Shown here piece by piece: positions 14,399 through 36,238 of a DNA stretch of 64,000 bases. This DNA comes from Robiginitomaculum sp. (GTDB taxonomy: Bacteria; Pseudomonadota; Alphaproteobacteria; Caulobacterales; Maricaulaceae): positions 1-64,000 of the forward strand of contig JALSHE010000108.1 of the NCBI GenBank assembly GCA_026982415.1, in the 5' to 3' direction. The position numbers and the translations under genes are program-made. Numbering within the stretch: the first letter of the stretch is position 1; each line of letters begins with the position of its first letter. Under the pieces are notes generated by a model. That model was not told the DNA's origin and ran no database searches. It saw only the letters and a program-made list of their open reading frames with translations.

Positions 14399-14405
14399 AA
14401 ATATT

Positions 14406-15733: not shown

Positions 15734-17293
15734 CTAATCCCCGCGCGTTTTCAAAAGCAGCCGCCCATAAACATCTGAGCCTGTACCTGCCTTCGTTTCA
15801 GTCGCGCGTCCGTTGACAATCACCGCATCAAAACCTGACGGCAATGCATTAATGTCTGACCACCCTGTACCAGCTGCAATTTCGTCTAGATTTATCACTA
15901 AGACATCCGCCGCCATGCCAGGCTTTAACACGCCGCGTGATTTGATGCCGAAGGTTTGCGCCGTTAAGCCAGACATTTTATGTATCGCCAGCTCAATGGG
16001 CATCAATTTATCGCGCACCACATAGTCTTCGATAACCTTTGGGAATGACCCGAAAGACCGTGGGTGGCGCATTGTCGGGCTACCATCTGAGGAAATAGAT
16101 ATATCGGGCGCTGTTATGAAAGCGTCTTGTGTTTCCTTTGTCATGATAAAATGTGCTGTCGACGGGCCGCTATGGCCAAAATCTATTATCAATTGTTCGG
16201 GTCTTTTCCCCGTCTTGTCCGCGACGTCTTGCAAGGTTTGCCCCGCATATTTACCTTTGGATATTAAGATGGCATTTGCGCCATTACGGCGTTTGATTTT
16301 TGCTCTTAAGAAAGCTTCGAACTCTGGACGGCGTGTTTTAACGGCAAGCTCAAACTCGCTTTTGCGCTTGGCCCATTCCGGATACAGAAATATCATCGAA
16401 CCGTAGCTAGCCAGATAAGGATAAACATCTGCCGTTACGGTCATGCCGCCTGCCCTCGCAGTGCGAATTTGCTCCAAAACTGCATCACCCTGAGCGCGAG
16501 TCTTGCCGTAAACCACTTTGATATGGGTGACATTGACTTTGGCATATTTGCCTTGAGCGATGACTTCTGCGATTGCCGCCTCGACTTTGTCATCATCTTC
16601 GGAGCGAATATGGGACGAGATTATGCTGTCGTAACGCCCGATGACTTTGGCAAGCCCGTTCAGTTCTTGCGTGTCTGCATAACGTCCCGGTAGATATTCC
16701 AATCCCGTACTCATGCCGTATGCGCCATGCTCCAAAGCCTCAACCAGCAATGCTTCCATCTTGGCTTGTTCTGCTGGGGTGATTTTATCTTTCTCGCCGC
16801 CGCCGGAAATTGTGCGTAGGGAGCCGTGCCCAACGAGGGACGCGATATTGGGGCCACTGCCCCGCTCACCAACATCCTTAATCCACCTAGCATAGGCTAG
16901 TTTACCATTGGGGCTACTGCCATCTTGACCAAGAATGATAGTTGTGACGCCTTGACGTAAAAAACTGCGCATAAAGTCATTATTATCGGCCAGAGGATCC
17001 CCGTGGGAATGGGCGTCAATAAAGCCCGGCGTTACGATTTTACCTGAAGCATCAATGACGGTGGCGGCTGAAATCTTTGTTTTGTCCGTCTTGCCAATAT
17101 ATGCAATACGCTCGCCCATGGTAAGCACATCGCCAGTGAAAGGCGCAGATCCCGTTCCGTCAACAAGAGTGCCGCCTTGGATATAAATATCATACTTTAG
17201 TGTGTAGTCAGGCGCGTTTATTTCAGGCTTTTCCGTGCAAGCGTTGAGAAGGAAAATACTGATTAGGGTAAAAAACTGAACTATGTTTCTCAT
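15734..17293 (-). CDS. N-acyl-D-amino-acid deacylase (D-aminoacylase family amidohydrolase)
   Basis: VTPGFIDAHSHGDPLADN, GMSTGLEYLPGRYAD, HIRSEDDDKVEAAIAE, DGSPTMRHPRSFGSFPKV; lipoprotein signal. Confidence 0.87.
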   Translation of the reverse strand: MRNIVQFFTLISIFLLNACTEKPEINAPDYTLKYDIYIQGGTLVDGTGSAPFTGDVLTMGERIAYIGKTDKTKISAATVIDASGKIVTPGFIDAHSHGDPLADNNDFMRSFLRQGVTTIILGQDGSSPNGKLAYARWIKDVGERGSGPNIASLVGHGSLRTISGGGEKDKITPAEQAKMEALLVEALEHGAYGMSTGLEYLPGRYADTQELNGLAKVIGRYDSIISSHIRSEDDDKVEAAIAEVIAQGKYAKVNVTHIKVVYGKTRAQGDAVLEQIRTARAGGMTVTADVYPYLASYGSMIFLYPEWAKRKSEFELAVKTRRPEFEAFLRAKIKRRNGANAILISKGKYAGQTLQDVADKTGKRPEQLIIDFGHSGPSTAHFIMTKETQDAFITAPDISISSDGSPTMRHPRSFGSFPKVIEDYVVRDKLMPIELAIHKMSGLTAQTFGIKSRGVLKPGMAADVLVINLDEIAAGTGWSDINALPSGFDAVIVNGRATETKAGTGSDVYGRLLLKTRGD

Positions 17294-17296
17294 GGT

Positions 17297-18394
17297 TTAT
17301 CCTTCTATATATTGCAAATTTTTGATTGCGCGAATACCCAGTCCAGGCCCGTCTCCCAGAATGATTTTGGGGCCGGCAAATGTGGTGCCGCCCTCTACCG
17401 GGTCGAAAGTGCCAAGCACGGGCCCGTCAAGGTCTATGTGGGTGATAATATCAGCATGGGCGGCGGCAAAATGTGCGGCGGCAGAAACGCTAATAGATGT
17501 TTCCAACATGCAGCCGATCATACATTTTGCGCCAAATTCTTCTGCGATATTGGCTATTTTAATGGCGTTAGATATACCGCCGGTTTTCATCAATTTAATA
17601 TTGATAATGTCGCAGGCTTCACGCTCCAATAATTCGCATACTTGAGCCGCATTAAAGGCGCTTTCGTCCGCCATGACAGGCGTGCTGACGCGCTGTGTGA
17701 TAAACCGCATGCCGTCAATATCATCGGCCTTAACCGGTTGCTCTATGAGGTCAAGCTTTACGCCAGACGCTTCCAACCCCTCCAAAATATTTACGGTTTG
17801 TTCTGCACTCCAGCCTTGATTAACATCCAGTATGAGACCAACTCTGCCTTTGGTATTTTTGTAAATTTCCTGAATGCGGTTTATATCAAGCTCAATGTTA
17901 TTGCCGACTTTTATTTTCAAAGTTTTGTAGCCTTGCTTAATTGCCAGCAGACTATCGGCAACCATTTTATCTACCCCGTCAAGACTAATGGTTAGATCTG
18001 TCGAAAGGGCGGGCGAACCGCCGCCGAGCATTTTATAAAGCGGCTGGTTTTGCGCTTGGGCGCTTAGATCGTAGACGGCAATTTCAGCCGCAGCTTTGGC
18101 ATTTGTATTATGGACAATCGCGCTTTGTATGGTGCTGGTAATGGCGCTTAAATCAGAAACCTCCATACCGATAATGGCCGGCATAATGTGGTAACGCAGA
18201 GCATCAATGATTGAGCCGTGGGTGTCCCCGGTGATTACAGCCGTGGGCGGCGCTTCTCCGTAGCCAATATTGCCTGTATCGGTTTCGACCAAGAGAATAA
18301 TATCTTCAATTTTCGTGACCGTGCGCAGTGCCGTTTTAAACGGCGTGATGAGCGGCACACAAAGTTTGGCAAGTTTAAATCCGGTGATTTTCAT
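17297..18394 (-). CDS. L-Ala-D/L-Glu (dipeptide) epimerase, enolase superfamily (YkfB/YcjG-like)
   Basis: KIKVGNNIELDINRI, LILDVNQGWSAEQT, IEQPVKADD, VMADESAFNAAQV, INIKLMKTGGI. Confidence 0.87.
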   Translation of the reverse strand: MKITGFKLAKLCVPLITPFKTALRTVTKIEDIILLVETDTGNIGYGEAPPTAVITGDTHGSIIDALRYHIMPAIIGMEVSDLSAITSTIQSAIVHNTNAKAAAEIAVYDLSAQAQNQPLYKMLGGGSPALSTDLTISLDGVDKMVADSLLAIKQGYKTLKIKVGNNIELDINRIQEIYKNTKGRVGLILDVNQGWSAEQTVNILEGLEASGVKLDLIEQPVKADDIDGMRFITQRVSTPVMADESAFNAAQVCELLEREACDIINIKLMKTGGISNAIKIANIAEEFGAKCMIGCMLETSISVSAAAHFAAAHADIITHIDLDGPVLGTFDPVEGGTTFAGPKIILGDGPGLGIRAIKNLQYIEG

Positions 18395-18411: not shown

Positions 18412-19824
18412 TTATTTTACGGTTTTAATGGTCGATGCACGGTCAAGGTAGCTATAGTCTTTGTTAGATTGCAAGGGCGCTACCGGGGTGACGGAAACGC
18501 CGTTAAGGGTGCCTTTATAAAGTGTGCCGTCTTGCTTCATATAGCCTAGGCCGTGTACGTCGTGTATGACAAAAGACTGGCCATCAGATTGCCCTAAAAG
18601 CATCATTACATGCCCCGGAATATAGATAAGATCACCGGGTTGTCCGCGCTTCAATCTTTCAATTTTATCCGCGCGCGGTGCGGCCTCCCCGTAGCGGGTA
18701 TTGATACCGATTTCGCTGCGGCCTTGGTCGCCGGAATTGCGCGGCAATTGAATGCCGAAACTTTTATATATCTCAGCCACAAACCCGGTGCAATCGCGCC
18801 CGTTAAAGCGGTGGCCCCAGCCATAGCGCTCCCCTAAAAATTTAAACGATTGTTTGATGATGTTCTCTTGTGTGAAAGGCAGATAGCCCACATGTGCATC
18901 TTCTTTCCGCTGGATGAGTGCGTGTTTGAAGTCCAAACTACCATCGGCCTTGCGCACAGGTAATAAAACCATATGGCTTAGATAAGGGTTTTGGCCGTAG
19001 AGATTATGTTGCAGTTCTTTTGGCCGAGATAGGGGCAGTTTTATGCCCATATCCAGTTGCAGTTCCGAAACGTCCGGCACTTCCGGATTAAAAACTGTCT
19101 CGACTTTATCGCCTGTGACAACAAGAAATTTATCCGTCTTGCCGTAATCTAAAACCTGTTCGCGCGCGCCAATAGCAATGTCAACCAACGGCACCCATGC
19201 AATATAGTTAAAGGACTGAACAAGCGCCCATTGCCCATCTGTGCTGGTGTGAAGGACGGCAAGCGCATCGCCGGGAAACAGCACACTTTCTTGGAACCTT
19301 TCAATATCACGGTCGCCAGCATCTTCACTAAATAAAAGGTCGTGTGTCGGGTAAGTGCGAATAGATGTCCGGCGCACGGTTAGGGCAAATTTTACCGGGT
19401 TTATGTCTTGGACGCTTTCTAAATTTAGCGCGTTTTCATAGCGCAGAAAATCCGCGTCATTTACAGGGGTTTCGTCTGTATAAATTCGGGGATATTTTGG
19501 CACTTTGCTGATAGAGCGAATGCGCGCCGTAAGTTCTATTTGCGTCAGTGTGTCAGGCACAGTGCTTATGTCGTAAAGTGTGGGGTCCGCAACTATATTC
19601 TTCGCATTAAAGGCTTGAATTTCCACGGCGCTCATTATGATTTTGCTCATACCCGGTTTTATCCAATGCTCGGGCGATAAATGCTTTTCGTTCACGCCGA
19701 TAACATCCGAGATAAATGGATCAGCAAAACCCAAATCCGTCGCATGGTTTTGCACTGATGATTTTTCGCATCCGGCGATAAAAACCGAGACGACGGCGCA
19801 AAGCAAGATAGTTTTTGTTTTCAT
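18412..19824 (-). CDS. SH3-domain NlpC/P60 (C40) peptidase, lipoprotein (YkfC-like gamma-D-Glu-diaminoacid endopeptidase candidate)
   Basis: C-terminal FLGERYGWGHRFNGRDCTGFVAEIYKSFGIQLPRNSGDQ and PGHVMMLLG catalytic region; adjacent to the epimerase as in ykfBC. Confidence 0.85.
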   Translation of the reverse strand: MKTKTILLCAVVSVFIAGCEKSSVQNHATDLGFADPFISDVIGVNEKHLSPEHWIKPGMSKIIMSAVEIQAFNAKNIVADPTLYDISTVPDTLTQIELTARIRSISKVPKYPRIYTDETPVNDADFLRYENALNLESVQDINPVKFALTVRRTSIRTYPTHDLLFSEDAGDRDIERFQESVLFPGDALAVLHTSTDGQWALVQSFNYIAWVPLVDIAIGAREQVLDYGKTDKFLVVTGDKVETVFNPEVPDVSELQLDMGIKLPLSRPKELQHNLYGQNPYLSHMVLLPVRKADGSLDFKHALIQRKEDAHVGYLPFTQENIIKQSFKFLGERYGWGHRFNGRDCTGFVAEIYKSFGIQLPRNSGDQGRSEIGINTRYGEAAPRADKIERLKRGQPGDLIYIPGHVMMLLGQSDGQSFVIHDVHGLGYMKQDGTLYKGTLNGVSVTPVAPLQSNKDYSYLDRASTIKTVK

Positions 19825-19831
19825 AATATCC

Positions 19832-20995
19832 TCACGATAAAGTCAGTAATATTTTCCCGATCAACAAGCCGCCGCCTGTCCCGATAATATAACCGAGCAT
19901 AGCCATAAGCACGCCAATAGGTATAAGCGCACGGGAATAAGCCGCCGCAAGAATAGGTGCCGAAGCAACACCGCCGACATTAGCCAGTGAAGCAACACCG
20001 CACGAAAATAAATCCAGCTTAAACAATTTTGCGGCGATGAGCAAAATTGCGCCGTGTATGAACAGTATCATGAAGCCAGCCAGTATAAACAAGGGCGCTT
20101 GCGTCAGTTCCGCAAAATTTGCCCGTGATGCGATTAAAGCAACAATGCCGTATAAAAGCACATTGCCCAATTCCATTGACCCTGCAACCCCGCCTAATTT
20201 AGTCATGGCACCAAGCGCGCCAAATATAGTGACAATAAGCACCGTCCAAGTTGTTTGCGAAAAGAAATCACTAGCAGGAAAATACCCGGCCAAGAATTGC
20301 GCCAACGCTGATGCTGCCAAGCCAAGCCCGATTAAAAACATCAAACTCCCAGCATCAATTTTTGCATCCGGGTTTTGTGCTTTGGCCTCAATACGCGCAC
20401 TAACCTCATCTATTAATTTGGTGTTGCTCTTTGTCCATTTATTGAATTGCGGTGCCAGCGGCACAAATGCCAATAACAACATCACCCACACCGCATAATC
20501 AATGGAATCAATGAGCAGTGTATAGCCCATGCTGGCATCTGGAATGTTGAGTGCGCCTTGTACCGCAACCATATTGCCTGTACCGCCCATCCAGCTACCG
20601 CTAAGCGCAGCAAATGTCATCCATGCGCTTTCTGGCAGCCAAGTCTTTAGAACCAAGAATGTAATGATTACCCCAATGCCAATACTCACACTTGCCGTAA
20701 AAAACGCCAAAATCATTTTAGGCCCAAGCGCGGCGATCTGCCTTATGTCGCCCTTAAGCAAAAGCAAGAAAATCATCGACGGCAGAAGATTGCCTTTCAC
20801 CGCCTTATAAGTAGCATTTACGCTATCGGTTTTTTCCCAAAACCCAAAGGTTGAGAGCAACATGACCAAGAAATACAGAATAACGATGCCGGGAATATAT
20901 TTGAAAATCCGGTATTTATTCGTACTGTCGAGCAAGCCGATAAGGCCGCTAATGGCAAATAATACTGCAAGATAGGCAAAACCGCTTGTAATCAT
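19832..20995 (-). CDS. DUF819 family integral membrane protein (YjcL-like)
   Basis: Multi-pass protein with SGSWMGGTGNMVAVQGALN and ASLANVGGVASAPILAAAY motifs. Confidence 0.8.
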   Translation of the reverse strand: MITSGFAYLAVLFAISGLIGLLDSTNKYRIFKYIPGIVILYFLVMLLSTFGFWEKTDSVNATYKAVKGNLLPSMIFLLLLKGDIRQIAALGPKMILAFFTASVSIGIGVIITFLVLKTWLPESAWMTFAALSGSWMGGTGNMVAVQGALNIPDASMGYTLLIDSIDYAVWVMLLLAFVPLAPQFNKWTKSNTKLIDEVSARIEAKAQNPDAKIDAGSLMFLIGLGLAASALAQFLAGYFPASDFFSQTTWTVLIVTIFGALGAMTKLGGVAGSMELGNVLLYGIVALIASRANFAELTQAPLFILAGFMILFIHGAILLIAAKLFKLDLFSCGVASLANVGGVASAPILAAAYSRALIPIGVLMAMLGYIIGTGGGLLIGKILLTLS

Positions 20996-21013: not shown

Positions 21014-22291
21014 TTAAATCCAGTTTGGAACGTCTTCTCTGTCCAGAATATCTTGAATGCTTGGGCGCTTTCTGATCACGGCATATTTATCGCCGCTTAC
21101 CAGAACTTCAGGAACTTGAGGGCGTGTGTTATACTCACTAGACTGCACCGCCCCGTAAGCACCAGCCGAACGGATAGCGACCAAATCCCCTTCTTGCATT
21201 TTGGGCATTTGCCGCATTTTTGTGAACGTATCTCCGGTTTCGCAGACGGGGCCTACAACATCATAGGCAATAATTTCGCTCGTTTCAGATTTTTTACGCA
21301 CAGGTTCTATCACATGGTTAGCGCCGTAAAGAGCGGGGCGAATTAAATCGTTCATAGCGGCGTCTAAAATTAGAAAATTCCGCGCACCACCTGATTTAAT
21401 ATATCGAACCTTCGAGAGCAATATACCTGCATTGCCTGCAATAGCCCGTCCGGGTTCAAAGATAATTTTTAGGTTATGGCCTTTGGTCTTCCGCTTCACC
21501 ATATCTCCGTAATCTGCTGGTAATGGCGGTTTGTCCGTATCTTCATCATAGCAAATGCCTAGCCCGCCGCCGACATCGTAATTTTTAAGGGTGTGCCCAT
21601 CGGCTCGTAGCACTTTTACTAAGTCTAATATCTTATCCATAGCCTTTTCAAAGGGAGCCAGAGTATTGATCTGACTGCCAATATGCATATCAACACCTGT
21701 AACTTCTAGGCTTGGTAATTCGCGAATTTTTGCATAGGCAGTTCTGGCCAATGTTATGTCTATGCCAAATTTGTTCTCCGCATTGCCAGTGGATATTTTC
21801 TCGTGACCTCCGGCATTAACATCGGGATTAATGCGCAGGGCAACAGGTGCCGTCGTGCCCAAGTCTGTGGCCATATCGCTTAGGGCAATCAGCTCTGAAA
21901 CAGATTCGACATTGAACTGGTAAATACCGCCCCCTTGATTGCAAGCGAGTGCCGCCCGCATTTCATCTTTGGATTTACCGACACCTGAAAATACGATTTT
22001 GTCAGGCGCAATACCGGCTCGCAAAGCCCGCTCTAGCTCCCCGCCGCTCACAACATCGGCGCCCGCACCTAATTTTGCCAATAGCGTTAGTATTGCAAGA
22101 TTGGAATTGGCTTTCACAGAATATGCAATCAAATGATCCATACCTGCTGCCGCATTAGTGAATGCGTTAAAGTGTCTGATGAATGTAGCGTTGCTGTAAA
22201 CATATACAGGGGTGCCGACACTTTGAGCAATTTCGGCCAGCGAAACATTTTCCGCCCATAATTGCCCTTGTTTGTATTGAAAGTGGTTCAT
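21014..22291 (-). CDS. lysA: Diaminopimelate decarboxylase
   Basis: PVYVYSNATFIRHF, IAYSVKANSNLAIL, GADVVSGGELERAL, DVGGGLGICYD, EPGRAIAGNAG, GPVCETGD motifs. Confidence 0.93.
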   Translation of the reverse strand: MNHFQYKQGQLWAENVSLAEIAQSVGTPVYVYSNATFIRHFNAFTNAAAGMDHLIAYSVKANSNLAILTLLAKLGAGADVVSGGELERALRAGIAPDKIVFSGVGKSKDEMRAALACNQGGGIYQFNVESVSELIALSDMATDLGTTAPVALRINPDVNAGGHEKISTGNAENKFGIDITLARTAYAKIRELPSLEVTGVDMHIGSQINTLAPFEKAMDKILDLVKVLRADGHTLKNYDVGGGLGICYDEDTDKPPLPADYGDMVKRKTKGHNLKIIFEPGRAIAGNAGILLSKVRYIKSGGARNFLILDAAMNDLIRPALYGANHVIEPVRKKSETSEIIAYDVVGPVCETGDTFTKMRQMPKMQEGDLVAIRSAGAYGAVQSSEYNTRPQVPEVLVSGDKYAVIRKRPSIQDILDREDVPNWI

Positions 22292-22315: not shown

Positions 22316-23581
22316 CTATTCGTGCGCATATTCTTGTACGGTCTCTAAAACACGGAGCAAATTCCCGCCCCATATTTTGTCTATATCTTCTTGGCTATAG
22401 CCGCGTTTCACCAATTCTTCGGTGACATTCATGGTTTCGGAGGCGTCCATCCAGCCTGGTATTTTACCACCGCCGTCAAAATCAGACGAGATGCCGACAT
22501 AGTCCACACCAACCGTTTTCACCACATGGTCGATATGGTCCACGAGGTCGGATATATTGGCAGGCGGCGATAACTTGCTGACATCCTTCATTTTGAAATC
22601 GTACAGGTCTTCGGTTTTTGCATCCATAGATAAAAATGCCATATCGTCTTCTAGTCCCATTTCTTTTCTCACCTTGTCCTTAAAGGCTTGTTGCGCGGGT
22701 GTGAGGTCTTTCAGATACGGGCCGTAAGCAACTATTTGAATAACGCCGCCCGTTTTTGCTAAGGCGCGTAACTGCTCGTCGTCTAAATTTCTAACATTAT
22801 CCGACACAGCCCGCGCACCAGAATGAGAGGCAATAACAGGCGTTTTGGAAAGCGCCACAGCCTGCATCATTGTGTTTTTACTTGCATGGGAGACATCGAC
22901 AATAATGCCAGCCTTATTCATTGTTGTTATTAATTCTCTGCCGAGTGGGGAAAGTCCCCCGTGCAAGCTGAGTTTCTCGCCCTTGTTATAGCTTGGGTTT
23001 GAGCTGTCGCCAAATTGGTTATGACCAACATGGGTGATACCTATATAGCGCACACCACGTTTGAACCACATGCTTACATCATCAACGGAATTGCCTAGAG
23101 GGTAAGCGTTTTCCAGTCCGATTAAGGCTATGCGTTTATCCGTGTTGTGAATTCGCCTTGTGTCATCAGCGCTAAGGGCTAACTCGATTTTATCTGCATG
23201 TTTCTCAGTGAGGCGCTTTATGGCGTTGTACCGGGTCTCAGCAATGTCAGCAGCCTTTGCGATACCTTCACTTGTATCATCGCCTTGGGGGGAAAAAACG
23301 ATTAAGAAAGCACCGTCCATACCGCCAGCTTTCATTTTTTCCAAGTCCGCACGGGTTTTGCCACTTGACCAAGGATCCATATCGTCTGCGATCAAATCTA
23401 GTTCAAGGTCAATATGACTATCCAAGACAAGAGCGTTTTCATGTATGGCTTTAACATTGATAGTAGGATTAGTCGCAGTGTTGGTTTTTGCTTGAGAACA
23501 TCCGGTTAGGATTATCGCCATGACTGAAAAAAGGCTTATGTTCTTAAAAAGACTGTTTTTTTTGAGGTAATTTACAGGCAC
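22316..23581 (-). CDS. Membrane dipeptidase (peptidase M19), lipoprotein
   Basis: LDSHIDLELD, IGITHVGHNQFGDSSN, GIIVDVSHASKNTM, PVIASHSGARAVSDNVRNLDDEQL, VGISSDFDGGG. Confidence 0.92.
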   Translation of the reverse strand: MPVNYLKKNSLFKNISLFSVMAIILTGCSQAKTNTATNPTINVKAIHENALVLDSHIDLELDLIADDMDPWSSGKTRADLEKMKAGGMDGAFLIVFSPQGDDTSEGIAKAADIAETRYNAIKRLTEKHADKIELALSADDTRRIHNTDKRIALIGLENAYPLGNSVDDVSMWFKRGVRYIGITHVGHNQFGDSSNPSYNKGEKLSLHGGLSPLGRELITTMNKAGIIVDVSHASKNTMMQAVALSKTPVIASHSGARAVSDNVRNLDDEQLRALAKTGGVIQIVAYGPYLKDLTPAQQAFKDKVRKEMGLEDDMAFLSMDAKTEDLYDFKMKDVSKLSPPANISDLVDHIDHVVKTVGVDYVGISSDFDGGGKIPGWMDASETMNVTEELVKRGYSQEDIDKIWGGNLLRVLETVQEYAHE

Positions 23582-23643: not shown

Positions 23644-24849
23644 TCAATTTGGGTATAGCAGATAAAGTTTACGGCGTTGTTTGAATGCATCTAGGCCTGT
23701 TTTCCAACTCATGCGTATCATCTCGGCACTTTGCCCCGTTTCCACTTGCTGGCGGAATTTAGCCGTACCCATAAGTTTATCCAGCCACGCGGGTCGGGTA
23801 AGAAATGGCGCGCCTAAATTTTCATTTAGCTTATTGGCGCGTCCATACCAGTCTATAAATAATTCAATGTTCAAACCCGATATTTGGCTTTGGCGAAGGT
23901 CACTTCCGTATAGTTTTTGGCCATTTAATTTGGGATTAAAGGCGGCGCCCGGCTTTGGCTCTGGTGTGAAAGTAAAGTCACCATATTCAGGGTGAATGCC
24001 GCCGAGGACTTGGAACGGAAAGTCAGTTCCCCTGCCTACACTAATATTGGTCGCCTCGAACAAGGCGAGAGATGGGTAGAGCGCAATAGCTTGTTGGTTA
24101 GGTAGATTAGGTGATGGTTTTATGGGCAAAATATATTCTGTGGTATGTGTGTAGTTTTTAACGGGGATAACCGTCAAATCACATGTCTGCTTGTTGGTGA
24201 GCCAGCCCTCTCCATTGATCATTTTAGCCAATTCCCCAAGGGTCATACCGTGGAGCAAGGGTATAGCATGCATGCCGACAAAGCTTTGAAACTCGGGTTC
24301 AAGTATAGGTCCGTCTATATGAAACCCGTTTGGATTGGGTCTATCCAGAACCAAAAGGGGGACATTATTTTGCGCGCAACTCTCCATAATATAGTGTAGC
24401 GAGCTTAGATAAGTATAAAACCGGACACCAACATCTTGCAGATCAAATACCAATATATCCAAATCCTGCACATCTTGCCTGGTTGGTGTTTTCTTGTTGC
24501 CGTAGATTGAAATAATCGGAAGGCCGCTGGATTTATCGCGGCTATTGTCAATAATTGCGCCAGCATCTTGGGTGCCGCGAATGCCGTGTTCCACAGCAAA
24601 TAGTTTGGTTATATTTATGCGCTCTGCTTGCAGAGCATCAATCAAATGTAATTCGCCAACCCGTGAACTTTGATTAACAATGAGGCCAACACGTTTTCCA
24701 GCAAGAGTGCTTTTCACCAAACCTATTTGCTCTGCGCCTGGGATAATAATATTAGATGGCAACATAGAGCAAGCGAGTATCGCGAACAGGCTAATTGCTG
24801 AAACTAACCAGAACAAGATTTTTTGGTGTCCCAACATTTTATCTTTCAT
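23644..24849 (-). CDS. DUF1343 / NamZ-type exo-beta-N-acetylmuramidase, second divergent copy
   Basis: GLIVNQSSRVGELHLIDAL, LFAVEHGIRGTQDAGAII, VFDLQDVGVRFYTYLSSL, VLDRPNPNGF; signal peptide. Confidence 0.88.
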   Translation of the reverse strand: MKDKMLGHQKILFWLVSAISLFAILACSMLPSNIIIPGAEQIGLVKSTLAGKRVGLIVNQSSRVGELHLIDALQAERINITKLFAVEHGIRGTQDAGAIIDNSRDKSSGLPIISIYGNKKTPTRQDVQDLDILVFDLQDVGVRFYTYLSSLHYIMESCAQNNVPLLVLDRPNPNGFHIDGPILEPEFQSFVGMHAIPLLHGMTLGELAKMINGEGWLTNKQTCDLTVIPVKNYTHTTEYILPIKPSPNLPNQQAIALYPSLALFEATNISVGRGTDFPFQVLGGIHPEYGDFTFTPEPKPGAAFNPKLNGQKLYGSDLRQSQISGLNIELFIDWYGRANKLNENLGAPFLTRPAWLDKLMGTAKFRQQVETGQSAEMIRMSWKTGLDAFKQRRKLYLLYPN

Positions 24850-25802
24850 TACCCTTCAGGCGCAATAACCAGCAATGCGTCCAAGCTTTTTGGGCGGTAT
24901 TTTTCAACCAAAGCAAACAGTATTGCCGTAGTCTCCAAGGAGGGTTCACCTGTTATTTCCGATGGTCTGAAATGTAGTTGGAAGGCGCTTATGGCGGCAC
25001 GAGTTTGGGCGTCAAAAACTCCGGTTGCCTCTATTTTGTAGCCGTAAGTCCCCAGTGCTTTTTGAACATTGATGAGTGGCATTGGTTGTACTGTGAATTG
25101 TTGCCAATATTTGACGACGGTCGCATCGTCAAACCATGCACCAATACCTAATTGATATAGGCGCTCCCACGGGAAACGCGGGCCGGGATCGACTTTTCGG
25201 CTTGGCGCGATGTCTGAATGTCCGACGATGTTGGTGGGGCCGACTCTTGGGTGTCTTTCTTGAATTTCGCGCAAAAGATCTATCAGTACAAGCATCTGGG
25301 TTTCAGGGAAATCAGGGTAAAAACAAAGCCGTTTAGGTGGTTTTATGCCGATTGGAGTAGGTTCAGGCTTCTTACAATAGGTCTGATTAACAACCTCTAT
25401 GCCTATGGAATGATCATTTAGGGCGCTTTTCCCTGCCCAATAACTCCGCCCTGCATGCCATGCTCGTTCCGTTTCTGGTACAAGCTCATAAACCTCCACA
25501 TGATCCTTTGTATAGCTTTCGTCGCTGGGGTCGGGCACCAAATAATGCGAACTGACCGGATTTGACGAATCTTTGGTTAGGATGTTTACTGAATCTTCGA
25601 AATTCGCTGATGTATGGTGGATAACGATTATACTGACACGGCTGTTAAAATTTACTGATGGTAATTGGGTGCTTGTCCCCACCGTGCTACAAGCAGTCAA
25701 GCCAAATAGCCCGGCGAGACAGGCTATACCTTGGAATTTTCGAATCGCTTTGCGAGCGGTTGATATGTGTTGCATTTTTATGCCCTGACCTGCCTTTTTC
25801 AT
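24849..25802 (-). CDS. N-acetylmuramoyl-L-alanine amidase (Amidase_2, AmiD-like) with peptidoglycan-binding domain, lipoprotein
   Basis: VIHHTSANFEDSV, SSHYLVPD, ERAWHAGRSYWAGKSALNDHSIGIEVVN, GHSDIAPSRKVDPGPRFPWERL; C-terminal PG_binding_1-like repeat. Confidence 0.92.
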   Translation of the reverse strand: MKKAGQGIKMQHISTARKAIRKFQGIACLAGLFGLTACSTVGTSTQLPSVNFNSRVSIIVIHHTSANFEDSVNILTKDSSNPVSSHYLVPDPSDESYTKDHVEVYELVPETERAWHAGRSYWAGKSALNDHSIGIEVVNQTYCKKPEPTPIGIKPPKRLCFYPDFPETQMLVLIDLLREIQERHPRVGPTNIVGHSDIAPSRKVDPGPRFPWERLYQLGIGAWFDDATVVKYWQQFTVQPMPLINVQKALGTYGYKIEATGVFDAQTRAAISAFQLHFRPSEITGEPSLETTAILFALVEKYRPKSLDALLVIAPEG

Positions 25803-25880
25803 TCATTTTATTAGGTTATTAGTGGAATACCTAGCAAGCTACACAGATTTAACAAGAGAATATTCGCAAAACCATCGCAT

Positions 25881-25898
25881 TGGTATTAAAGTGGTATT
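25881..25898. promoter_or_regulatory. Direct-repeat operator TGGTATT-AAAG-TGGTATT between the amidase operon and the TonB receptor
   Basis: Exact direct repeat of TGGTATT with 4-bp spacing in the divergent promoter region; same architecture at 31615..31632. Confidence 0.7.
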
Positions 25899-26058
25899 GC
25901 TTAAACCGGCTGTATATGTGACCTTTTTACAATACTACCGCAAAAGCACTACAAAGGATTTAAATTGGTATTTGACATCATGATAATATTTGCGGTATGC
26001 AAAAACAACCAAACATTAAGCCGTATTAATGCGGCGTAAACGCTAGAGGGGGTACGTC

Positions 26059-29000
26059 ATGACCAACAAACACATAACATCCAATAAAATCCGTCCCATT
26101 ACATCACGGGCTGGCTTGAAAGCAGTGCTGCTAGGCACGGCCATGGCCATTAGTATTGCTATGGTAAGCACGCCAGCTATGGCTCAACAGGCCGGCACCG
26201 TGAATGGCCATGTAACGAGTGGCGACGGCACGGCACTTTCGGGCGTAACTGTTGAGGCTAGAAGTTCCGTATTACCGGGCGTAAGAACAGCAACGTCATC
26301 GGCAAATGGTCGCTATCAACTCCCTTTACTACCGCCGGGGGCATATGAGCTAACATTTAGAAACCCGGACGGTACTGTTCTACAGCGCAATGCGTTAGTT
26401 CTATTGCAACAAAAAATCAAAGTCGACGTGGCATTTGGTGCCGCAAGAGATGAGGTGGTAGTGGTTGCCCAAAGGATTAACGTGGATTCAGGAATAGCGT
26501 CTTTGAAAAACACACTAGGCTCAGACATTGTTCAAGGCATTCCCATTGGACAAGAGTATCGCGACTTACAAAAATTGATACCTGGCGTTCAATATAGCGA
26601 AGATAATGTTCGCGGGCCAAGTGCGGGTGGTAGTGGTCAGGACAATAACTACCAATTTGACGGCGTAGATGTGTCGCTTCCTTTATTCGGAACACTATCA
26701 GCTGAGCCCTCCACTCATGATATTGATCAGGTTTCTATCGTTCGCGGCGGCGCAACAGCCATAGGGTTTAACCGTTCAGGTGGTTTCTTGATCAATACCA
26801 TCAGTAAACGCGGTACTAATGAGTATAAAGGAGAAATAAGCTATACGGTAGAAACGCCAAAGCTAACTTCCGCCCGCAAAGATGCTATCGCCCTTGTGGA
26901 TTTTGAAGAAAACAGGCGTTGGATTACTGCAAATCTCGGTGGCCCCATTATTAAAGACAAACTGTTTTTATACGGTTCTTATTTCCGCCCGACGATAACA
27001 CGAGAAAACGCAAGTAATGCTTACGGTGTTGTTCCTGATTTCAAAAGCGAACGCAATGAATATTTTGGTAAAGTTACTTTTGCGCCATTTGACGGTGTAT
27101 TACTTGATGCCAGCTACCGAACTTCCGACCGAACAGGTACAACAGAAAACGTTGGCGGCTTCGCGGCAGCATCTACCGCGACTTCCAGTACAGCGTCGCA
27201 AGACATCATCATTGCTGAGGGTTCGTGGGTAATTAATGATAAAAGTTCATTGAATTTCAAGTTTACAGACTTTCTAAGTAAATCCACTTCGCGTCCAGAT
27301 ACTATTTTCAGTATACCAGTCACATTCGGTGGCGCACTCCCTATTGCTACCATTGATCAGTTAGGGCGGTTTTCTGTGCCACAACCTCTTACAGCTACGC
27401 CTCCCGACGTTCTCACAGCTGACCAGATAGCGTTTAACACATTTGTCCAACCTTTTATTGATCAATACGGTTTTTCTGAAAATGGTGTTCAAACTGGCGG
27501 CGGTGTTGTTGGTGGTGCTAATCAATTTAACAGGCAGGATTTTAACCGTACTTCCTTCGAAATTGGCTATGACCGCACTATCAATGCCGGTGACACAACA
27601 CACGATATACATATTGGCTACCAATATCAGGAAATTGGTGAAGACCTTGAGCGCACCTCGAATGGGTTTGGACGCATTTCTGTGCTCGGCGGACGTAGTT
27701 TTGCCGATGATGGAATCACACCTGTATTTTTTGAAGCTCGCGTGTTCCAAACGGGTATTGTCGATGGTAATGGCTCCACAATCGTTCCGCGTTCAATAAT
27801 CTCAAGCTCCAAACTACAAAGTTTTGAAATTAATGACACCATTGAAAATGGGGATTGGACGTTTAATCTCGGCTTGTTAATTAGTAATGATGTCTTGTTT
27901 GGCCAAGGCCTGCGGGAAAATGCCAATAACATTTCAGGTTTTGAACTGGCGCCCGGGAATAAATACAAAATGTATGAAGTCGATTGGGTTGACATGATCC
28001 AGCCGCGTTTCGGTGTCAACTGGGACTATTCAGACAGCGGCTCTCTGTATGCCAATTTTGCGCGCTATACGCCCTCCGCTTCTTCTTTAGCGCGCGCCGC
28101 GTCATGGGACAGGAATTTATCACGCGAACTCAGGCTGCGTTATGATGCCGCTGGTAACTTTATTGAAAGCTCTGCCGTGCGGTCTTCTTCCGGTAAATTT
28201 TTCCAAGCTGGTTTGAAACCTCGACAAATCAAGGAATATCTTGTTGGTTGGAACAAGCAGGTTAACGATAAATTAGAAGTTCGCCTTCACGCACGTCACC
28301 GCGCCGGTTCGAATTTCTGGGAAGATACCAACAATAATGCGCGTACAAGATTTAATGCACCGGCAGAAATTGCTGCTTTGGGCGACTATATACCTAACTT
28401 AGCGGCTGTCCGTGCCGAAATTGGCGGGTCGTCTTACGTGATCGCTCAGCTCGATACGGCTCATACAGAATATTATGAAGCGGCAATTGAAGCAGATTAC
28501 ACTGGCGACAATTTTTATCTGTCTGGCTCCTATGTCTGGTCAAGTTATACTGGTAATTTTGACCAGGATAATACGACTACAGCCAATGATGCTAACAGTT
28601 TTATCGGATCATCATTTATAGCCGATGGCGCAGGACGTCAGCTTTGGGACAATAGAGAGGGTAAATTGCGGGGAGATAGACCTCATCAACTGAAAGTCTA
28701 TGGTTACTACAATTTACCTTGGAATGGCAGTGTTGGAGCATTTGCCAACTATCAATCTGGACAACCTTGGGAAGCTTGGGATGTAGAGGTATATCGTGCT
28801 TTGACAGGTAGTAGCAGTGACACAAGTCGTTTTGCTGAAGCTGCCGGGTCACGTAGAACCAAAGGTCATTTTCAACTTGATGTGAGCTATGCCCAAGAAC
28901 TAGAAGTCTTGGACGGTTATAGCATCGAGCTACGTGCAGATTTATTTAATGTGTTGAATAGCCAAACTGGCTATAACATACAAAACAAAGTCAACAGCGC

Positions 29001-29070
29001 TGGTTTTGGTGACCCACGAACATTGTACAACCCGCGTCGTTTGCAATTATCAGCTAAGGCAAAGTTTTAA
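26059..29070 (+). CDS. TonB-dependent receptor with carboxypeptidase-regulatory-like N-terminal domain (Oar-like)
   Basis: Signal peptide (STPAMAQQ), CarboxypepD_reg-like NGHVTSGDGTALSGVTVEAR...NGRYQLPLLPPGAYELTF, plug and beta-barrel region, C-terminal LQLSAKAKF. Confidence 0.9.
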   Translation: MTNKHITSNKIRPITSRAGLKAVLLGTAMAISIAMVSTPAMAQQAGTVNGHVTSGDGTALSGVTVEARSSVLPGVRTATSSANGRYQLPLLPPGAYELTFRNPDGTVLQRNALVLLQQKIKVDVAFGAARDEVVVVAQRINVDSGIASLKNTLGSDIVQGIPIGQEYRDLQKLIPGVQYSEDNVRGPSAGGSGQDNNYQFDGVDVSLPLFGTLSAEPSTHDIDQVSIVRGGATAIGFNRSGGFLINTISKRGTNEYKGEISYTVETPKLTSARKDAIALVDFEENRRWITANLGGPIIKDKLFLYGSYFRPTITRENASNAYGVVPDFKSERNEYFGKVTFAPFDGVLLDASYRTSDRTGTTENVGGFAAASTATSSTASQDIIIAEGSWVINDKSSLNFKFTDFLSKSTSRPDTIFSIPVTFGGALPIATIDQLGRFSVPQPLTATPPDVLTADQIAFNTFVQPFIDQYGFSENGVQTGGGVVGGANQFNRQDFNRTSFEIGYDRTINAGDTTHDIHIGYQYQEIGEDLERTSNGFGRISVLGGRSFADDGITPVFFEARVFQTGIVDGNGSTIVPRSIISSSKLQSFEINDTIENGDWTFNLGLLISNDVLFGQGLRENANNISGFELAPGNKYKMYEVDWVDMIQPRFGVNWDYSDSGSLYANFARYTPSASSLARAASWDRNLSRELRLRYDAAGNFIESSAVRSSSGKFFQAGLKPRQIKEYLVGWNKQVNDKLEVRLHARHRAGSNFWEDTNNNARTRFNAPAEIAALGDYIPNLAAVRAEIGGSSYVIAQLDTAHTEYYEAAIEADYTGDNFYLSGSYVWSSYTGNFDQDNTTTANDANSFIGSSFIADGAGRQLWDNREGKLRGDRPHQLKVYGYYNLPWNGSVGAFANYQSGQPWEAWDVEVYRALTGSSSDTSRFAEAAGSRRTKGHFQLDVSYAQELEVLDGYSIELRADLFNVLNSQTGYNIQNKVNSAGFGDPRTLYNPRRLQLSAKAKF

Positions 29071-29137: not shown

Positions 29138-30712
29138 TTATTTTACAAAATCACCTAGGACTTGTTTCAAGCCATTTAGTTTATCACCATATTTTTTCCA
29201 GCGATCGATTGAACTAGCGTAAAGAGGTTGACGGACTTGTACTGCGCTTGCTGTCGCTACGGCGGTGGTATTTTCGTGAAACCGCATACAGGCTTCATCC
29301 CATTTCAGGCCACAAAAACTTAACAGTTTGCGAGTCTGGTTTTCTTGATTATGAATAATGTCTTCATAGGCAATTTGCGAGAAGCTGTCAGACGGTAAGT
29401 TCTCGCGCCAATGCGCCATTAATTCGTCAAATTCACGATAATATGCTGCCGTGTCTTCAATGCTATAGCTATAATCGTGACTATTATTGTGGTTTGCAAA
29501 AATTTGACGGTAATTGGATAAACAACTATCCATAGCCCCTCGCCTCACGACAATGATTTTTGCATTTGGTAAGGCGCGGTGTATCAACCCCGCAAAGAAA
29601 AAGTTAAAAGGCATTTTATCCACAAGATATGCGGCACCTGATGCCAAGCCAATGGTTTTATCAATGTAATTTTCGCCGACTTTTGACAAATCAACCCTGC
29701 CCGCCTCACGGATAATGTCGGGGTTTAGTGTTGTGTTTAGAGGGGCGCCGACCGCAATGTTAATCATCTGGGAAAATACACTAAGCTCGCCCGCTGATTT
29801 AACCCTTGGGTGCGACGATAAAATACGGTCAACCAGTGTGGTGCCTGTACGGGGTAGGCCAATCACAAATATCGGCGCAACATTGGGTATTTTACGGAGC
29901 GCTTGACTGCTACCAATTGCTCTTGGTTTTGTCGTTGTCTTTGCGGCTTCAAATAACTGTGCATCACGATGTTTGCTATATTGAATTTGGCGCCTCTTGT
30001 TTGCTTTCCCTTTTTCGAGCCATTCAAAGCTCTCTTGATATTGCCCCAAATCTTCGAGAGTTTTGGCAATGGAATGCGCAAGTAACAAGTGCGCTTCAGC
30101 ATCCCCAGTGTTGTTCTCAAAAAGCGCTGTCAATGTTTCAAGCTTACTGTTATCGGCATTTTGTTTTTCAATTGATACCAGTGAGAACCAAGCCAAGTAG
30201 AATTTTGGATCGACGGCTACTGTGTTTTCATAGGCGGATTTTGCTTTCTTAAAGTCACCAATAAATTCTGCAGAGGCCCCGAGATTAAAGTGAAACTTTG
30301 CCCACCGTGGGTTTTTGCTCACAGCCTTCTCAAAAAACGGTATAGCCAGCTCATGATAACCGATACGACTATACACAACGCCAATCATATCGGCCAATAG
30401 AGCGTCATCAGTGCCAATTATAGCCGCTTGGTCTGCATGCACCTTGGCTTGATTATTATGGCCATGGGCAACTAATTCTTTAGCGTAATAGGTTTGGTAA
30501 TTTACATTTTGCGCGCCATGCTCGCAAGCTTTAGCAAAAAACTCTAGTGCTTTCGCATGATTGCCTGTGTCGGAGGCAAGAACACCTAAAAGAAAAAAGG
30601 GAAGCGGATTCTTCTCGTCAATTTTTAATGCCGCAACGGACTGTTCGTAAACGGCCTCATAATTTCGCGCTCTAAGAAGCTTCATACCTGTGGCAAATGA
30701 GATAGCCGTCAT
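29138..30712 (-). CDS. Tetratricopeptide repeat sulfotransferase family protein
   Basis: N-terminal TPRs; C-terminal PAPS-binding FVIGLPRTGTTLVDRILSSHPRVKSAGEL and VVRRGAMDSCLSNYRQIF. Confidence 0.9.
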   Translation of the reverse strand: MTAISFATGMKLLRARNYEAVYEQSVAALKIDEKNPLPFFLLGVLASDTGNHAKALEFFAKACEHGAQNVNYQTYYAKELVAHGHNNQAKVHADQAAIIGTDDALLADMIGVVYSRIGYHELAIPFFEKAVSKNPRWAKFHFNLGASAEFIGDFKKAKSAYENTVAVDPKFYLAWFSLVSIEKQNADNSKLETLTALFENNTGDAEAHLLLAHSIAKTLEDLGQYQESFEWLEKGKANKRRQIQYSKHRDAQLFEAAKTTTKPRAIGSSQALRKIPNVAPIFVIGLPRTGTTLVDRILSSHPRVKSAGELSVFSQMINIAVGAPLNTTLNPDIIREAGRVDLSKVGENYIDKTIGLASGAAYLVDKMPFNFFFAGLIHRALPNAKIIVVRRGAMDSCLSNYRQIFANHNNSHDYSYSIEDTAAYYREFDELMAHWRENLPSDSFSQIAYEDIIHNQENQTRKLLSFCGLKWDEACMRFHENTTAVATASAVQVRQPLYASSIDRWKKYGDKLNGLKQVLGDFVK

Positions 30713-30724
30713 CCTCGATACCTT

Positions 30725-31585
30725 CTATATAGAATTTTGTCGCGCCAACCAGAGTGCTCCATCAAGTGCATCGCCGTCCGGTTTTACCAGCTTTGCATTT
30801 ATTTGCGGAGAAAGCCATGGTTTGATTGGCTCCCCTATTCCGCCGCACAACGCTATGCGCGGTACATCATATTTAAACAAGCTCTTGATTAAAGTTTCAA
30901 TATGCTTAGCGGCATTTTGTACGATTTCATAGCCCACTGGGTCACTGTCATTGGCTGCGGTAATAATCCGTTCTGCAAATGCTGCGAAATCTTTTGGTGT
31001 TGCAGTATCTAACCAGTCATTCAGCACTTGAATATCATAATCAAAATTACGAAATAAAGCCGTGGTTAGTCCGGAATGTTCCAGCCGACCATCTGCCGCA
31101 CTTAAGGTCGCTGACAATGCCTTTGCGCCAATATATGCGCCACTACCCTCATCTGAAATCGGAAAACCGTAGCCACCTACGCGTATGCTTTTTCCTGCGA
31201 TACGGCCAATGCCAATACTGCCAGTGCCTACGATGACAACCCCACCATCTTGTCCGTTGTGTGCGCCTATATTGGCTATAACTGCATCATTGGTAAATAA
31301 AACTTCGTGGAAGGGCAAAGGTTGCATTTGTAGCTCTGCCTTCGCACCAGTTCGCCCAATGCCAGCAATCCCGAAACATGCGCGGATTTGAGCCACATTA
31401 TTAGCGCTCAACTCCGCTTCCCTTATAGCCTGAAAATACGCATCCGTAATTGCAGAGAATGCTTGTTTGTAATTCTTGCGCACATTCCCAGGGCCGGATA
31501 ATCCACACCCTATAATCCGGCCTGTGCTATCCGTGAGCCGCGCGCGACATTGAGTGCCACCAGCATCAATTCCCAAAAAATACAT
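30725..31585 (-). CDS. BadF/BadG/BcrA-type N-acetylglucosamine/MurNAc kinase (MurK-like)
   Basis: FLGIDAGGTQCRARLTDSTGRIIG, VVIVGTGSIGIGRI, DEGSGAYIGAKAL; located with nagA and murQ. Confidence 0.83.
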   Translation of the reverse strand: MYFLGIDAGGTQCRARLTDSTGRIIGCGLSGPGNVRKNYKQAFSAITDAYFQAIREAELSANNVAQIRACFGIAGIGRTGAKAELQMQPLPFHEVLFTNDAVIANIGAHNGQDGGVVIVGTGSIGIGRIAGKSIRVGGYGFPISDEGSGAYIGAKALSATLSAADGRLEHSGLTTALFRNFDYDIQVLNDWLDTATPKDFAAFAERIITAANDSDPVGYEIVQNAAKHIETLIKSLFKYDVPRIALCGGIGEPIKPWLSPQINAKLVKPDGDALDGALWLARQNSI

Positions 31586-31614
31586 TCGTTCTCAATTCGC
31601 ACTAAAACACAAAA

Positions 31615-31632
31615 AGGTATTATAGTGGTATT
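31615..31632. promoter_or_regulatory. Direct-repeat operator AGGTATT-ATAG-TGGTATT between the kinase gene and nagA
   Basis: Same TGGTATT-N4-TGGTATT architecture as 25881..25898 with one mismatch; divergent promoter. Confidence 0.68.
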
Positions 31633-31697
31633 GTATTTCCGGTCAAATGTATTAGAGTGACAAGAGTGTTTTTACATAAACCCCGGAGACATGATAC

Positions 31698-32837
31698 ATG
31701 CAGGCTCTTATTAATGGGAGAGTGTTGACACCTGATGGTTTTAAAGACAATCAAAGCGTCTTATTTCAAGATGGTTTGATTACAAAGGTGTGTAATGATC
31801 TAGCCCGTCCAAAAAATGTTACGGTCGTAAATGACCTAGGTGGCAAGACATTGCTACCAGGTTTTGTTGACATACAAGTCAATGGTGGCGGTGGTGTCTT
31901 GTTCAATGATGACCCCAGTGTTGCCGGGATTAAAGCCATCGGTGAAGCCCACCGGAAATTTGGGACAACCAGTTTCTTCCCCACATTAATTAGTGATAAT
32001 TCCGATGTGATGTCGCGGGCAATACGAGCTGTAGATGATGCAATACAACAAGGTGTACCCGGAGTTCTCGGCATTCACCTTGAGGGTCCGTTCTTAAACG
32101 CAGAGAAATGCGGCGTACACGATGCCGCTAAATTCAATCAAATCGGTGGCGCTGAATTGAACCTCATTTCGAGCCTGAAAAACGGAAAAACAATTGTTAC
32201 CCTCGCGCCTGAAATGACAACACCCGATGTTATCAGCACACTCTGTGAGCGCGGCATAATTGTTATGGCCGGGCACACACAAGCTTCTTATGAACAAACA
32301 TTGGCGGCAATGGATGCAGGCCTCACCGGGTTTACGCATTTGTTTAATGCTATGAAGCCATTGGCTAGTCGCGAACCCGGCATTATTGCCGCCGCTTTAC
32401 AAGACCCACGCGCCTGGTGCAGTCTTATCGCCGACGGTCACCACATACATCCAGCTATGATGCGCCTTGCCTTGCGTGCCAAGGTCGAGGACCAAATTTT
32501 TCTCGTAACGGATGCGATGCCGAGTGTTGGAACCACACGAAATAATTTCTCACTGGGCGGGACAAATATTTGTGTGATTAACGGAAAATGTGTCACTGAG
32601 GACGGTAAGCTCGCAGGCTCTGACTTAGATATGATGAGCGCCGTTATAAATGCCACAAACATGATCGGAATTGACCTTGAACAGGCGGTTCGTATGGCCA
32701 GTGGCTTGCCTGCAAAATTTTTGAATATGCAGGACGAAGTCGGAGAAATACGCCCAGGGCTTCAAGCAAATTTTATAGTTGTTTCTCAAGAATTAAAGGT
32801 CGTGGAAAGCTGGGTTAACGGAAAAGTATTTTCCTGA
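31698..32837 (+). CDS. nagA: N-acetylglucosamine-6-phosphate deacetylase
   Basis: LLPGFVDIQVNGGGGVLFND, IHLEGPFLNAEKCGVHD, MAGHTQASYEQ, THLFNAMKPLASREPG, VTDAMPSVG. Confidence 0.94.
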   Translation: MQALINGRVLTPDGFKDNQSVLFQDGLITKVCNDLARPKNVTVVNDLGGKTLLPGFVDIQVNGGGGVLFNDDPSVAGIKAIGEAHRKFGTTSFFPTLISDNSDVMSRAIRAVDDAIQQGVPGVLGIHLEGPFLNAEKCGVHDAAKFNQIGGAELNLISSLKNGKTIVTLAPEMTTPDVISTLCERGIIVMAGHTQASYEQTLAAMDAGLTGFTHLFNAMKPLASREPGIIAAALQDPRAWCSLIADGHHIHPAMMRLALRAKVEDQIFLVTDAMPSVGTTRNNFSLGGTNICVINGKCVTEDGKLAGSDLDMMSAVINATNMIGIDLEQAVRMASGLPAKFLNMQDEVGEIRPGLQANFIVVSQELKVVESWVNGKVFS

Positions 32838-32846
32838 TCTTAGTAG

Positions 32847-33605
32847 CTAATCAAGCTGACTATTTTCTAAGTTCATAACAATATCGTAGCAGTCCCCTCG
32901 GTAAGTAGATCTGGTTAACTCAATCGGCGTCCCGTCTTGAAGCTCCGACCTGCGCTCAATCCGTAAGACCTCGCTATTTTCCTCAATGGATAAAAGCCCC
33001 GCTTCGGTCGGATTAGCCAAAGAAGCGCGCACTTTTTGAGTGCCTTTAACTGGCTTGTTACCTTTCGTCTCCAGTGCTTGATAAAGAGATTCCGTTATTT
33101 CAGAAATATCAGGTAACATGGTAGCCGGAACCACTGCGTGTTCAATGGCTAATGGTTGACCATCAGACAAGCGAACACGTCCAAGTCTAACGACTTTATC
33201 TGCCTGGCGTATTTTTAATATTTCGGCTTCCTCCACAGTTGGTGTCCCGTAAGCTTTCATGATCCAAATCGCTTGCGGATTATAGGTGTTCATACTGCTG
33301 GTAAATCCGCGTAGATTTGATCCGAGATGGGCAATACGGGGTAGCACAAATGTACCTGAACCGTGCTTGCGCTGAATAACTTTCTCTTCTGCAAGAATAT
33401 TTAGCGCTCTTCTAATTGTAACCCGCGAAGCCCCGGTCATCAGACAAAGTTCACGCTCGGAAGGCAGAGCATCGCCAGCTACTACATGGTTTTCAGCAAT
33501 TCGGGTACGGATATTCTTAGCAATCTGCATATAATGTGGCATAGCTGAAGTTTTATCACGGTTTATTTTTTCCAACTTCATCATAGTATTCCTGTTCATT
33601 CGCAC
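32847..33605 (-). CDS. GntR family (HutC/UTRA) transcriptional regulator, NagQ/NagR-like
   Basis: N-terminal wHTH PHYMQIAKNIRTRIAENHVVAGDALPSERELCLMTGASRVTIRRALNILAEEKVIQRKHGSGTFV plus UTRA domain. Confidence 0.9.
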   Translation of the reverse strand: MRMNRNTMMKLEKINRDKTSAMPHYMQIAKNIRTRIAENHVVAGDALPSERELCLMTGASRVTIRRALNILAEEKVIQRKHGSGTFVLPRIAHLGSNLRGFTSSMNTYNPQAIWIMKAYGTPTVEEAEILKIRQADKVVRLGRVRLSDGQPLAIEHAVVPATMLPDISEITESLYQALETKGNKPVKGTQKVRASLANPTEAGLLSIEENSEVLRIERRSELQDGTPIELTRSTYRGDCYDIVMNLENSQLD

Positions 33606-35159: not shown

Positions 35160-36050
35160 TCAATTCTCCTTAGCCGCTAATTTAGCCAAAGCGCTACGAA
35201 GGTTTCCATCCGACTGGCTTAAAATTTCTTTTGCGCCAACCAAATTCTGCCCCAAGGCTATCAAGATAGCGGTTTTGATGTTTTTATTTGCTCTTTTCAG
35301 CGCAGTTTGAGCGGTTTGCTTTGAGCAATCCGTAATACTGCAAATTATGCTAATAGCGCGGTCTTCAAGTTTTTTATTAGAGACAATCATATCCACCATA
35401 AAGCCTTTATAGACACGTCCCAATCTTGTCATAATCGCGGTTGATAGCATGTTTAGAATTACTTTTTGGGCAGTACCGGCTTTCATTCTGGTTGATCCTG
35501 CAAGGATTTCACTACCAGTTTCAGCCAAAATGGCGTGGTCAACATCTTGTAGAATTGGGGTCTTGGGGTTATTGGCAATACCAATTGTCAACGCCCCCAT
35601 TGCATTGGCCTCTTGTAATGCGCCCAGAGTGAAAGGGGTTTTTCCGCTTGCCGCCACACCAATAACAACATCATGTTTGCCAACATTGGCGTTACGAATC
35701 TGTGTTTGACCATCATCAAAATCGTCTTCAGCCCCCTCGGCGCTTTCCGTTAAGGCTTGCAAACCGCCAGCGATGCAAAACACGATACGGTCCTGCGCCC
35801 AGCCAAATGTGGGGCCAAGCTCTGTCGCATCTTGAATGGCTAACCGCCCGGAAGTGCCCGCCCCTACATAAATCAACCTACCCGTTTTACCAAGTTTCAG
35901 AGCGGCTTGATCTGCGGCATTGGCAATATCCAAAATAGCGGGCTTAACCGCTGCCAACGCCATAAGCTGCCCTTCATACATGGCGGCAATTGTTTCCGGT
36001 GTTGACCATTGATCAAAGTCAACAAACCTCTGGCATATATCCTCTGTCAT
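35160..36050 (-). CDS. murQ: N-acetylmuramic acid 6-phosphate etherase
   Basis: SIS fold: RLIYVGAGTSGRLAIQDATELGPTFGW, VVIGVAASGKTPFTLGAL, SEILAGSTRMKAGTAQKVILNMLST. Confidence 0.95.
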   Translation of the reverse strand: MTEDICQRFVDFDQWSTPETIAAMYEGQLMALAAVKPAILDIANAADQAALKLGKTGRLIYVGAGTSGRLAIQDATELGPTFGWAQDRIVFCIAGGLQALTESAEGAEDDFDDGQTQIRNANVGKHDVVIGVAASGKTPFTLGALQEANAMGALTIGIANNPKTPILQDVDHAILAETGSEILAGSTRMKAGTAQKVILNMLSTAIMTRLGRVYKGFMVDMIVSNKKLEDRAISIICSITDCSKQTAQTALKRANKNIKTAILIALGQNLVGAKEILSQSDGNLRSALAKLAAKEN

Positions 36051-36207: not shown

Positions 36208-36238
36208 TGGTACTATAAACAATACCAATTAGATACAT
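36208..36238. promoter_or_regulatory. TGGTACT...AATACCA half-sites upstream of murQ (candidate degenerate GntR operator)
   Basis: TGGTACT at 36208-36214 and AATACCA at 36221-36227; minus-strand reading ATGTATC-TAAT-TGGTATT is a degenerate N4 direct repeat. Confidence 0.4.

Follow-up and report, generated by a model that had tools for sequence, protein, structure and literature searches.

Regulators of the GntR family that act on direct repeats are known from several amino-sugar systems. NagQ, of the HutC subfamily, has been reported to bind direct repeats of TGGTATT (PMC4494728), and its motif is a tandem repeat; in Xanthomonas NagQ controls nagAB and nagP, and NagQ regulons in alpha-, beta- and some gammaproteobacteria comprise nagA, nagB and transporters, with expansions to chitin genes (PMC5343134). 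The underlying regulon work, Yang 2006 and RegPrecise, is referred to here as cited in these two papers (PMC4494728, PMC5343134). In HutC divergons one site usually serves both operons (PMC4494728). NanR of E. coli, from the GntR/FadR subfamily, recognizes a (GGTATA)3 operator with one dimer per repeat (PMC8012715).

We analyzed 64,000 nucleotides of DNA from Robiginitomaculum sp. (contig JALSHE010000108.1, positions 1 to 64,000), below called the window, and compared a locus in it with these systems. The NagQ box named in the initial annotation agrees with the published direct repeat TGGTATT (PMC4494728, PMC5343134). The locus shares with NagQ regulons the TGGTATT direct repeat with a 4-bp spacer, a GntR/UTRA regulator, and nagA and a kinase as targets, and receptor and transporter targets occur in NagQ regulons as well. 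The named published expansions concern chitin use, whereas here the additional genes concern peptidoglycan (amidase, NamZ, peptidases, diaminopimelate decarboxylase, epimerase, D-aminoacylase and murQ), and an extra phased half-site lies on a −35 box. NanR is similar as a GntR protein whose direct repeats consist of a GGTAT-type word, but it has three contiguous repeats, a FadR-type (FCD) C-terminal domain and Neu5Ac as ligand; an assignment to NanR was rejected, the locus having two TGGTATT repeats and a UTRA domain. NagR/YvoA of B. subtilis (PMC4333415) and DasR are the nearest solved structures and have the same GlcN-6-P/GlcNAc-6-P pocket; their sites are palindromic dre sites, in contrast to the direct repeats here. 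In the Caulobacter clusters for GlcNAc and peptidoglycan recycling (PMC13046382), GntR-type regulators are likewise proposed to sense GlcNAc-6-P, and receptor, nagA and nagB are clustered; unlike the organism studied here, Caulobacter crescentus has no MurQ, and its cell-wall hydrolases lie outside those clusters. Control of murQ by MurR (RpiR) was rejected as well, the regulator adjoining murQ being a GntR/UTRA protein. In the open literature we found no paper joining NagQ with murQ besides one on Streptomyces that looks unrelated by its title and abstract.

The locus is one of peptidoglycan scavenging and recycling (Table 1). Its left part is an eight-gene run on the minus strand, from 25802 down to 15734, with gaps of −1 to 62 bp, which bears out the earlier description of an eight-gene operon with small gaps. 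To the right of the receptor gene follow genes for a TPR-sulfotransferase, the BadF-type kinase, NagA, the GntR/UTRA regulator, an FAD oxidase and MurQ. The receptor had been annotated as a TonB receptor; its CarboxypepD_reg N-terminus and overall sequence character speak for this, while the Plug domain is far below the cut-off, and the predicted structure (pLDDT 40) is too poor to use. The TPR-sulfotransferase gene (29138-30712) is kept beside the kinase gene in the locus across the family. Left of the operon, at 11205-15698, lies a plus-strand cluster that encodes a second NamZ besides an SSF symporter and an AmpC-like hydrolase carrying DUF3471; no strong operator was seen ahead of this cluster. 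In relatives, the genes for the symporter and the hydrolase accompany the locus. In relatives nagB-II is found between operator and nagA, while the corresponding stretch of the window (31586-31697) does not contain it. The whole genome has no PF01182 NagB, and its sole NagB-II relative, an open frame of 649 aa, resembles GlmS. The GlcN-6-P gained by salvage may go into wall synthesis and not into glycolysis; another possibility is that the metagenome-assembled genome (MAG) is incomplete.

Table 1. Genes and candidate control elements of the peptidoglycan locus in the window.
Feature	Position	Strand	Basis
D-aminoacylase-like amidohydrolase	15734..17293	-	Pfam Amidohydro_3; specificity inferred
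L-Ala-D/L-Glu epimerase-like enolase-superfamily enzyme	17297..18394	-	Pfam/NCBIfam, below equivalog cut-off
SH3_6 + NlpC/P60 peptidase	18412..19824	-	Pfam
DUF819 membrane protein, probable transporter	19832..20995	-	Pfam
Diaminopimelate decarboxylase (LysA)	21014..22291	-	TIGR01048 above cut-off
M19 membrane dipeptidase	22316..23581	-	Pfam
NamZ exo-beta-N-acetylmuramidase	23644..24849	-	Pfam PF07075/PF20732
N-acetylmuramyl-L-alanine amidase (Amidase_2 + PG_binding_1), first gene of operon	24849..25802	-	Pfam
CTTGTTAAA, probable extended −10 of amidase operon promoter	25848..25856	-	conserved aligned block; Ta.aacaAg consensus in relatives
Operator O1 (probable), TGGTATT-AAAG-TGGTATT	25881..25898	+	exact; PWM 28.2, top in window; 12 orthologous loci
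AATTGGTATTTGAC, single NagQ-like half-site overlapping receptor −35 (TTGAC)	25963..25976	+	invariant 14 bp, 12 loci
Oar-like outer-membrane receptor (CarboxypepD_reg N-terminus), probable TonB-dependent	26059..29070	+	PF13620; Plug 8.5 bits
BadF/BcrA-type amino-sugar kinase (NagK/MurK-like)	30725..31585	-	PF01869; NCBIfam NagK_SO3507 234 bits, cut-off 370
Operator O2 (candidate), AGGTATT-ATAG-TGGTATT	31615..31632	+	1 mismatch; PWM 24.9, second in window
NagA, GlcNAc-6-phosphate deacetylase	31698..32837	+	TIGR00221 above cut-off
GntR/HutC-type regulator (GntR HTH + UTRA), proposed NagQ-type repressor	32847..33605	-	Pfam; closest solved relatives NagR/YvoA, DasR
MurQ, MurNAc-6-phosphate etherase	35160..36050	-	NF003915 above cut-off
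Weak operator O3 (candidate), ATGTATC-TAAT-TGGTATT	36221..36238	-	upstream of murQ-FAD oxidase-gntR; PWM 16.4, third in window

Inspection of the sequence agrees with the exact 7-4-7 direct repeat claimed by the initial annotation at O1, oriented toward the receptor gene. The amidase operon starts 78 bp to its left and the receptor gene 160 bp to its right. With at most one mismatch the window contains two matches (25881 and 31615), compared with a mean of 0.02, and never two, in dinucleotide shuffles. Matches to seven-base words are frequent once mismatches are allowed (17 matches at three mismatches versus 7.4 expected), which speaks for a chance match, but exact and one-mismatch sites are 100-fold above shuffles, and chance is refuted by the conservation of position, orientation and spacing in 12 genomes, so that we regard this explanation as practically negligible. 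O1 is kept at the same place and in the same orientation at the divergent amidase/receptor promoter in 12/12 orthologous genomes. Across the 2.73-Mb genome (MAG) there is one exact site, and of the three sites with at most one mismatch two lie in this locus, the third being intragenic (C4:12505; PWM 9.5) and therefore rejected.

The link between sites and regulator was analyzed in a family set of 137 genomes, 12 of which encode a window-regulator ortholog with ≥66% identity. The set contains 11 exact sites and no copy of the reversed control word; eight of these sites belong to nag or amidase/receptor promoters, the remaining three being inside other genes. An exact site is found in 8 of the 12 ortholog-bearing genomes and in 2 of the 125 others (Fisher p ~8e-9, relatedness ignored). 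The 80 loci surrounding regulator relatives (1.41 Mb) yielded 60 sites with at most one mismatch and none for six control words; the pattern TGGTATT-Nx-WGGTATT has 24 occurrences there with x=4, against 0-2 with other spacers. In most of the 80 loci the regulator gene is a direct neighbour of murQ, nagB-II/nagA or the kinase gene, and in a tree of 39 relatives a single branch (support 90/89) splits those with murQ directly upstream from those in which murQ is divergent. A different GntR protein encoded in the genome, such as the 29%-identical paralog at C71, is very unlikely to own the site: a second UTRA-type relative is indeed encoded, but it is far more distant, and the sites go with the window-type regulator from genome to genome and adjoin its gene in the 80 loci. 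The features of a NagQ-type system, namely a site before nagA, conservation in orthologous promoters and co-occurrence with the regulator, were all found here, and O1 is, judging from these patterns, very probably an operator of the NagQ-type GntR/HutC repressor of this locus, encoded about 7 kb away.

The initial annotation had proposed a genome-wide matrix scan, and after rescoring the sites of this locus indeed rank top. A matrix (PWM) was trained on sites from other genomes and then applied to the window; for the whole genome, matches to the pattern with at most two mismatches were rescored by this matrix. The top four matches in the window, O1, O2, O3 and 25955 (15.6, at the receptor −35), fall within the regions that control the amidase/receptor, nagA and murQ-gntR units. 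The maximum scores in ten first-order Markov versions of the window are 9.5-18.2, so O1 and O2 are clear and O3 and 25955 are not significant alone. O2 lies between the minus-strand kinase gene and nagA, 66 bp before the latter, and its counterpart in relatives is kept ahead of nagA or nagB-II-nagA. The core of O3, GTATC-TAAT-TGGT, is retained upstream of murQ in four same-genus genomes, which supports this site. The next-best genomic match after the sites of the locus (C10:28574, 15.4 bits) is inside a coding gene and was rejected. Instead of the 4-bp spacer, three sister-genus genomes show a distance of 21 bp, or two turns, between two TGGTATT words upstream of murQ.

The regulator has both PF00392 and PF07702 above cut-off, while in the NCBIfam search no model scored above cut-off; its predicted structure (pLDDT 57) is too poor to use. 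Among the 14 positions that contact the amino-sugar phosphate in B. subtilis NagR, twelve are identical in the window protein (F89, T90, R133, R135, E145, S165, Y167, I209, R211, E222, S226 and Y228) and two are replaced conservatively (I166->L and A224->T). Since these contacts are kept, an amino-sugar 6-phosphate is the expected effector; it could be any amino-sugar phosphate.

The receptor promoter contains a further element, AATTGGTATTTGAC, in which TGGTATT runs into the TTGAC −35 box and which is part of the fourth-best matrix match (25955-25972). It is invariant in 12/12 orthologous receptor promoters, while the adjoining promoter bases vary. Measured from the second half of O1, the −35 TGGTATT lies 63 bp away in ten genomes, 62 bp in one and 74 bp in the window; the last distance is longer by 11 bp, or one helical turn, and represents the sole large change. 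The DNA in between has 30-43% identity in most cross-genus pairs (up to 64% in some), and thus the length of the spacing and not its sequence is conserved; the distance from the receptor −35 to the ATG ranges from 72 to 102 bp. A fixed spacing over diverged DNA suggests a phased two-site switch, in which the regulator probably contacts the −35 TGGTATT on the same helical face as O1. A lone TGGTATT can in principle be bound, given that NanR binds with one dimer per repeat (PMC8012715). The −35 element and the weak murQ site, both absent from the initial annotation, extend the switch beyond a single site.

In the order-wide search the paired architecture of O1 and AATTGGTATTTGAC was found in the Robiginitomaculum-type family only, two further matches (G004 and G126) resembling coding sequence. 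Strict dependence of AATTGGTATTTGAC on NagQ is not established: in genomes lacking the regulator the copies are mostly coding, yet one pair stands ahead of another receptor (G113, G109). In two same-genus genomes (L131 and L141, around 1501) ATTGGTATTTGAC stands before a different receptor gene whose divergent neighbour is a LysR gene, and one of these genomes, G113 (L131), has no close regulator ortholog, showing that the ATTGGTATTTGAC element can exist without NagQ. A consensus promoter scan of 25780-26080 gave one match, no more than shuffles.

These observations bear on the manner in which O1 acts. It is situated upstream of the likely amidase −35 and about 100 bp upstream of the receptor start point, as judged from predicted promoters. 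This is not an obvious position for steric block, which counts against reading O1 as a repressor operator. O1 could instead be a NagQ site acting one-sidedly or as an activator, the fixed distance reflecting a class-I-like contact with RNA polymerase and AATTGGTATTTGAC being a plain core promoter. Its place upstream of both predicted −35 boxes, the 63/74 bp spacing, which preserves the helical phase as activator sites do, and the occurrence of ATTGGTATTTGAC before the LysR-divergent receptor gene in G113 are in line with this explanation. We nevertheless consider it rather unlikely: NagR and DasR, HutC-family amino-sugar regulators, are known repressors, O2 could overlap the nagA core promoter, and all 14 bp of the half-site are unchanged across 12 genomes while the adjoining promoter bases vary. 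Tentatively, and as one possibility among several, the full operator and the −35 half-site, 63 bp or one turn more apart, may form a two-part, helically phased NagQ-type switch, a repression loop or a cooperative bridge, that governs complete peptidoglycan scavenging and is undescribed for this regulator family. Alternatives for the fixed gap are the class-I-like polymerase contact and a third protein in the gap. In the window, TGTGACCTTTTTACAA (25917-25932) takes the place of the TGTGGSNTTTTTGCCATA seen in relatives, 25 bp away from the second O1 half; it is possibly a site for a CRP-like or a bending protein inside the fixed-length gap. The extra 11 bp of the window fall between TGTGACCTTTTTACAA and the −35.

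Under the repressor reading of O1, the dimeric regulator would, when the amino-sugar phosphate is absent, occupy O1 (amidase/receptor), O2 (nagA and kinase) and, more weakly, O3 (murQ-gntR, implying autoregulation), keeping these units off. At the amidase/receptor promoter it would probably also touch the TGGTATT overlapping the receptor −35. Muropeptides entering via the receptor, or leaked from turnover, would be cut by the amidase, NamZ and peptidases, and the kinase and MurQ would yield GlcNAc-6-P/GlcN-6-P (or MurNAc-6-P). Binding of the amino-sugar phosphate to the UTRA domain would lower the affinity for DNA and open the operons; by analogy with the NagR, DasR and NagQ relatives, repression would be relieved in this way. 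Binding, ligand, loop, direction of regulation and contact with the −35 element are what we infer from the comparisons above. Two-way control from O1 is made plausible by the usual sharing of a single site in HutC divergons.

In summary, the switch is of a known amino-sugar type, and its regulon here appears to reach complete peptidoglycan degradation. The phased −35 half-site would lend itself to simple tests of how a GntR/HutC protein bound to direct repeats acts at a distance. One amino-sugar switch would be tied to full cell-wall breakdown in marine Alphaproteobacteria, including outer-membrane uptake, amidase, exo-muramidase, stem-peptide enzymes and the MurNAc and GlcNAc phosphate pathways, from which it could be predicted in concrete terms when these bacteria feed on dead neighbours.
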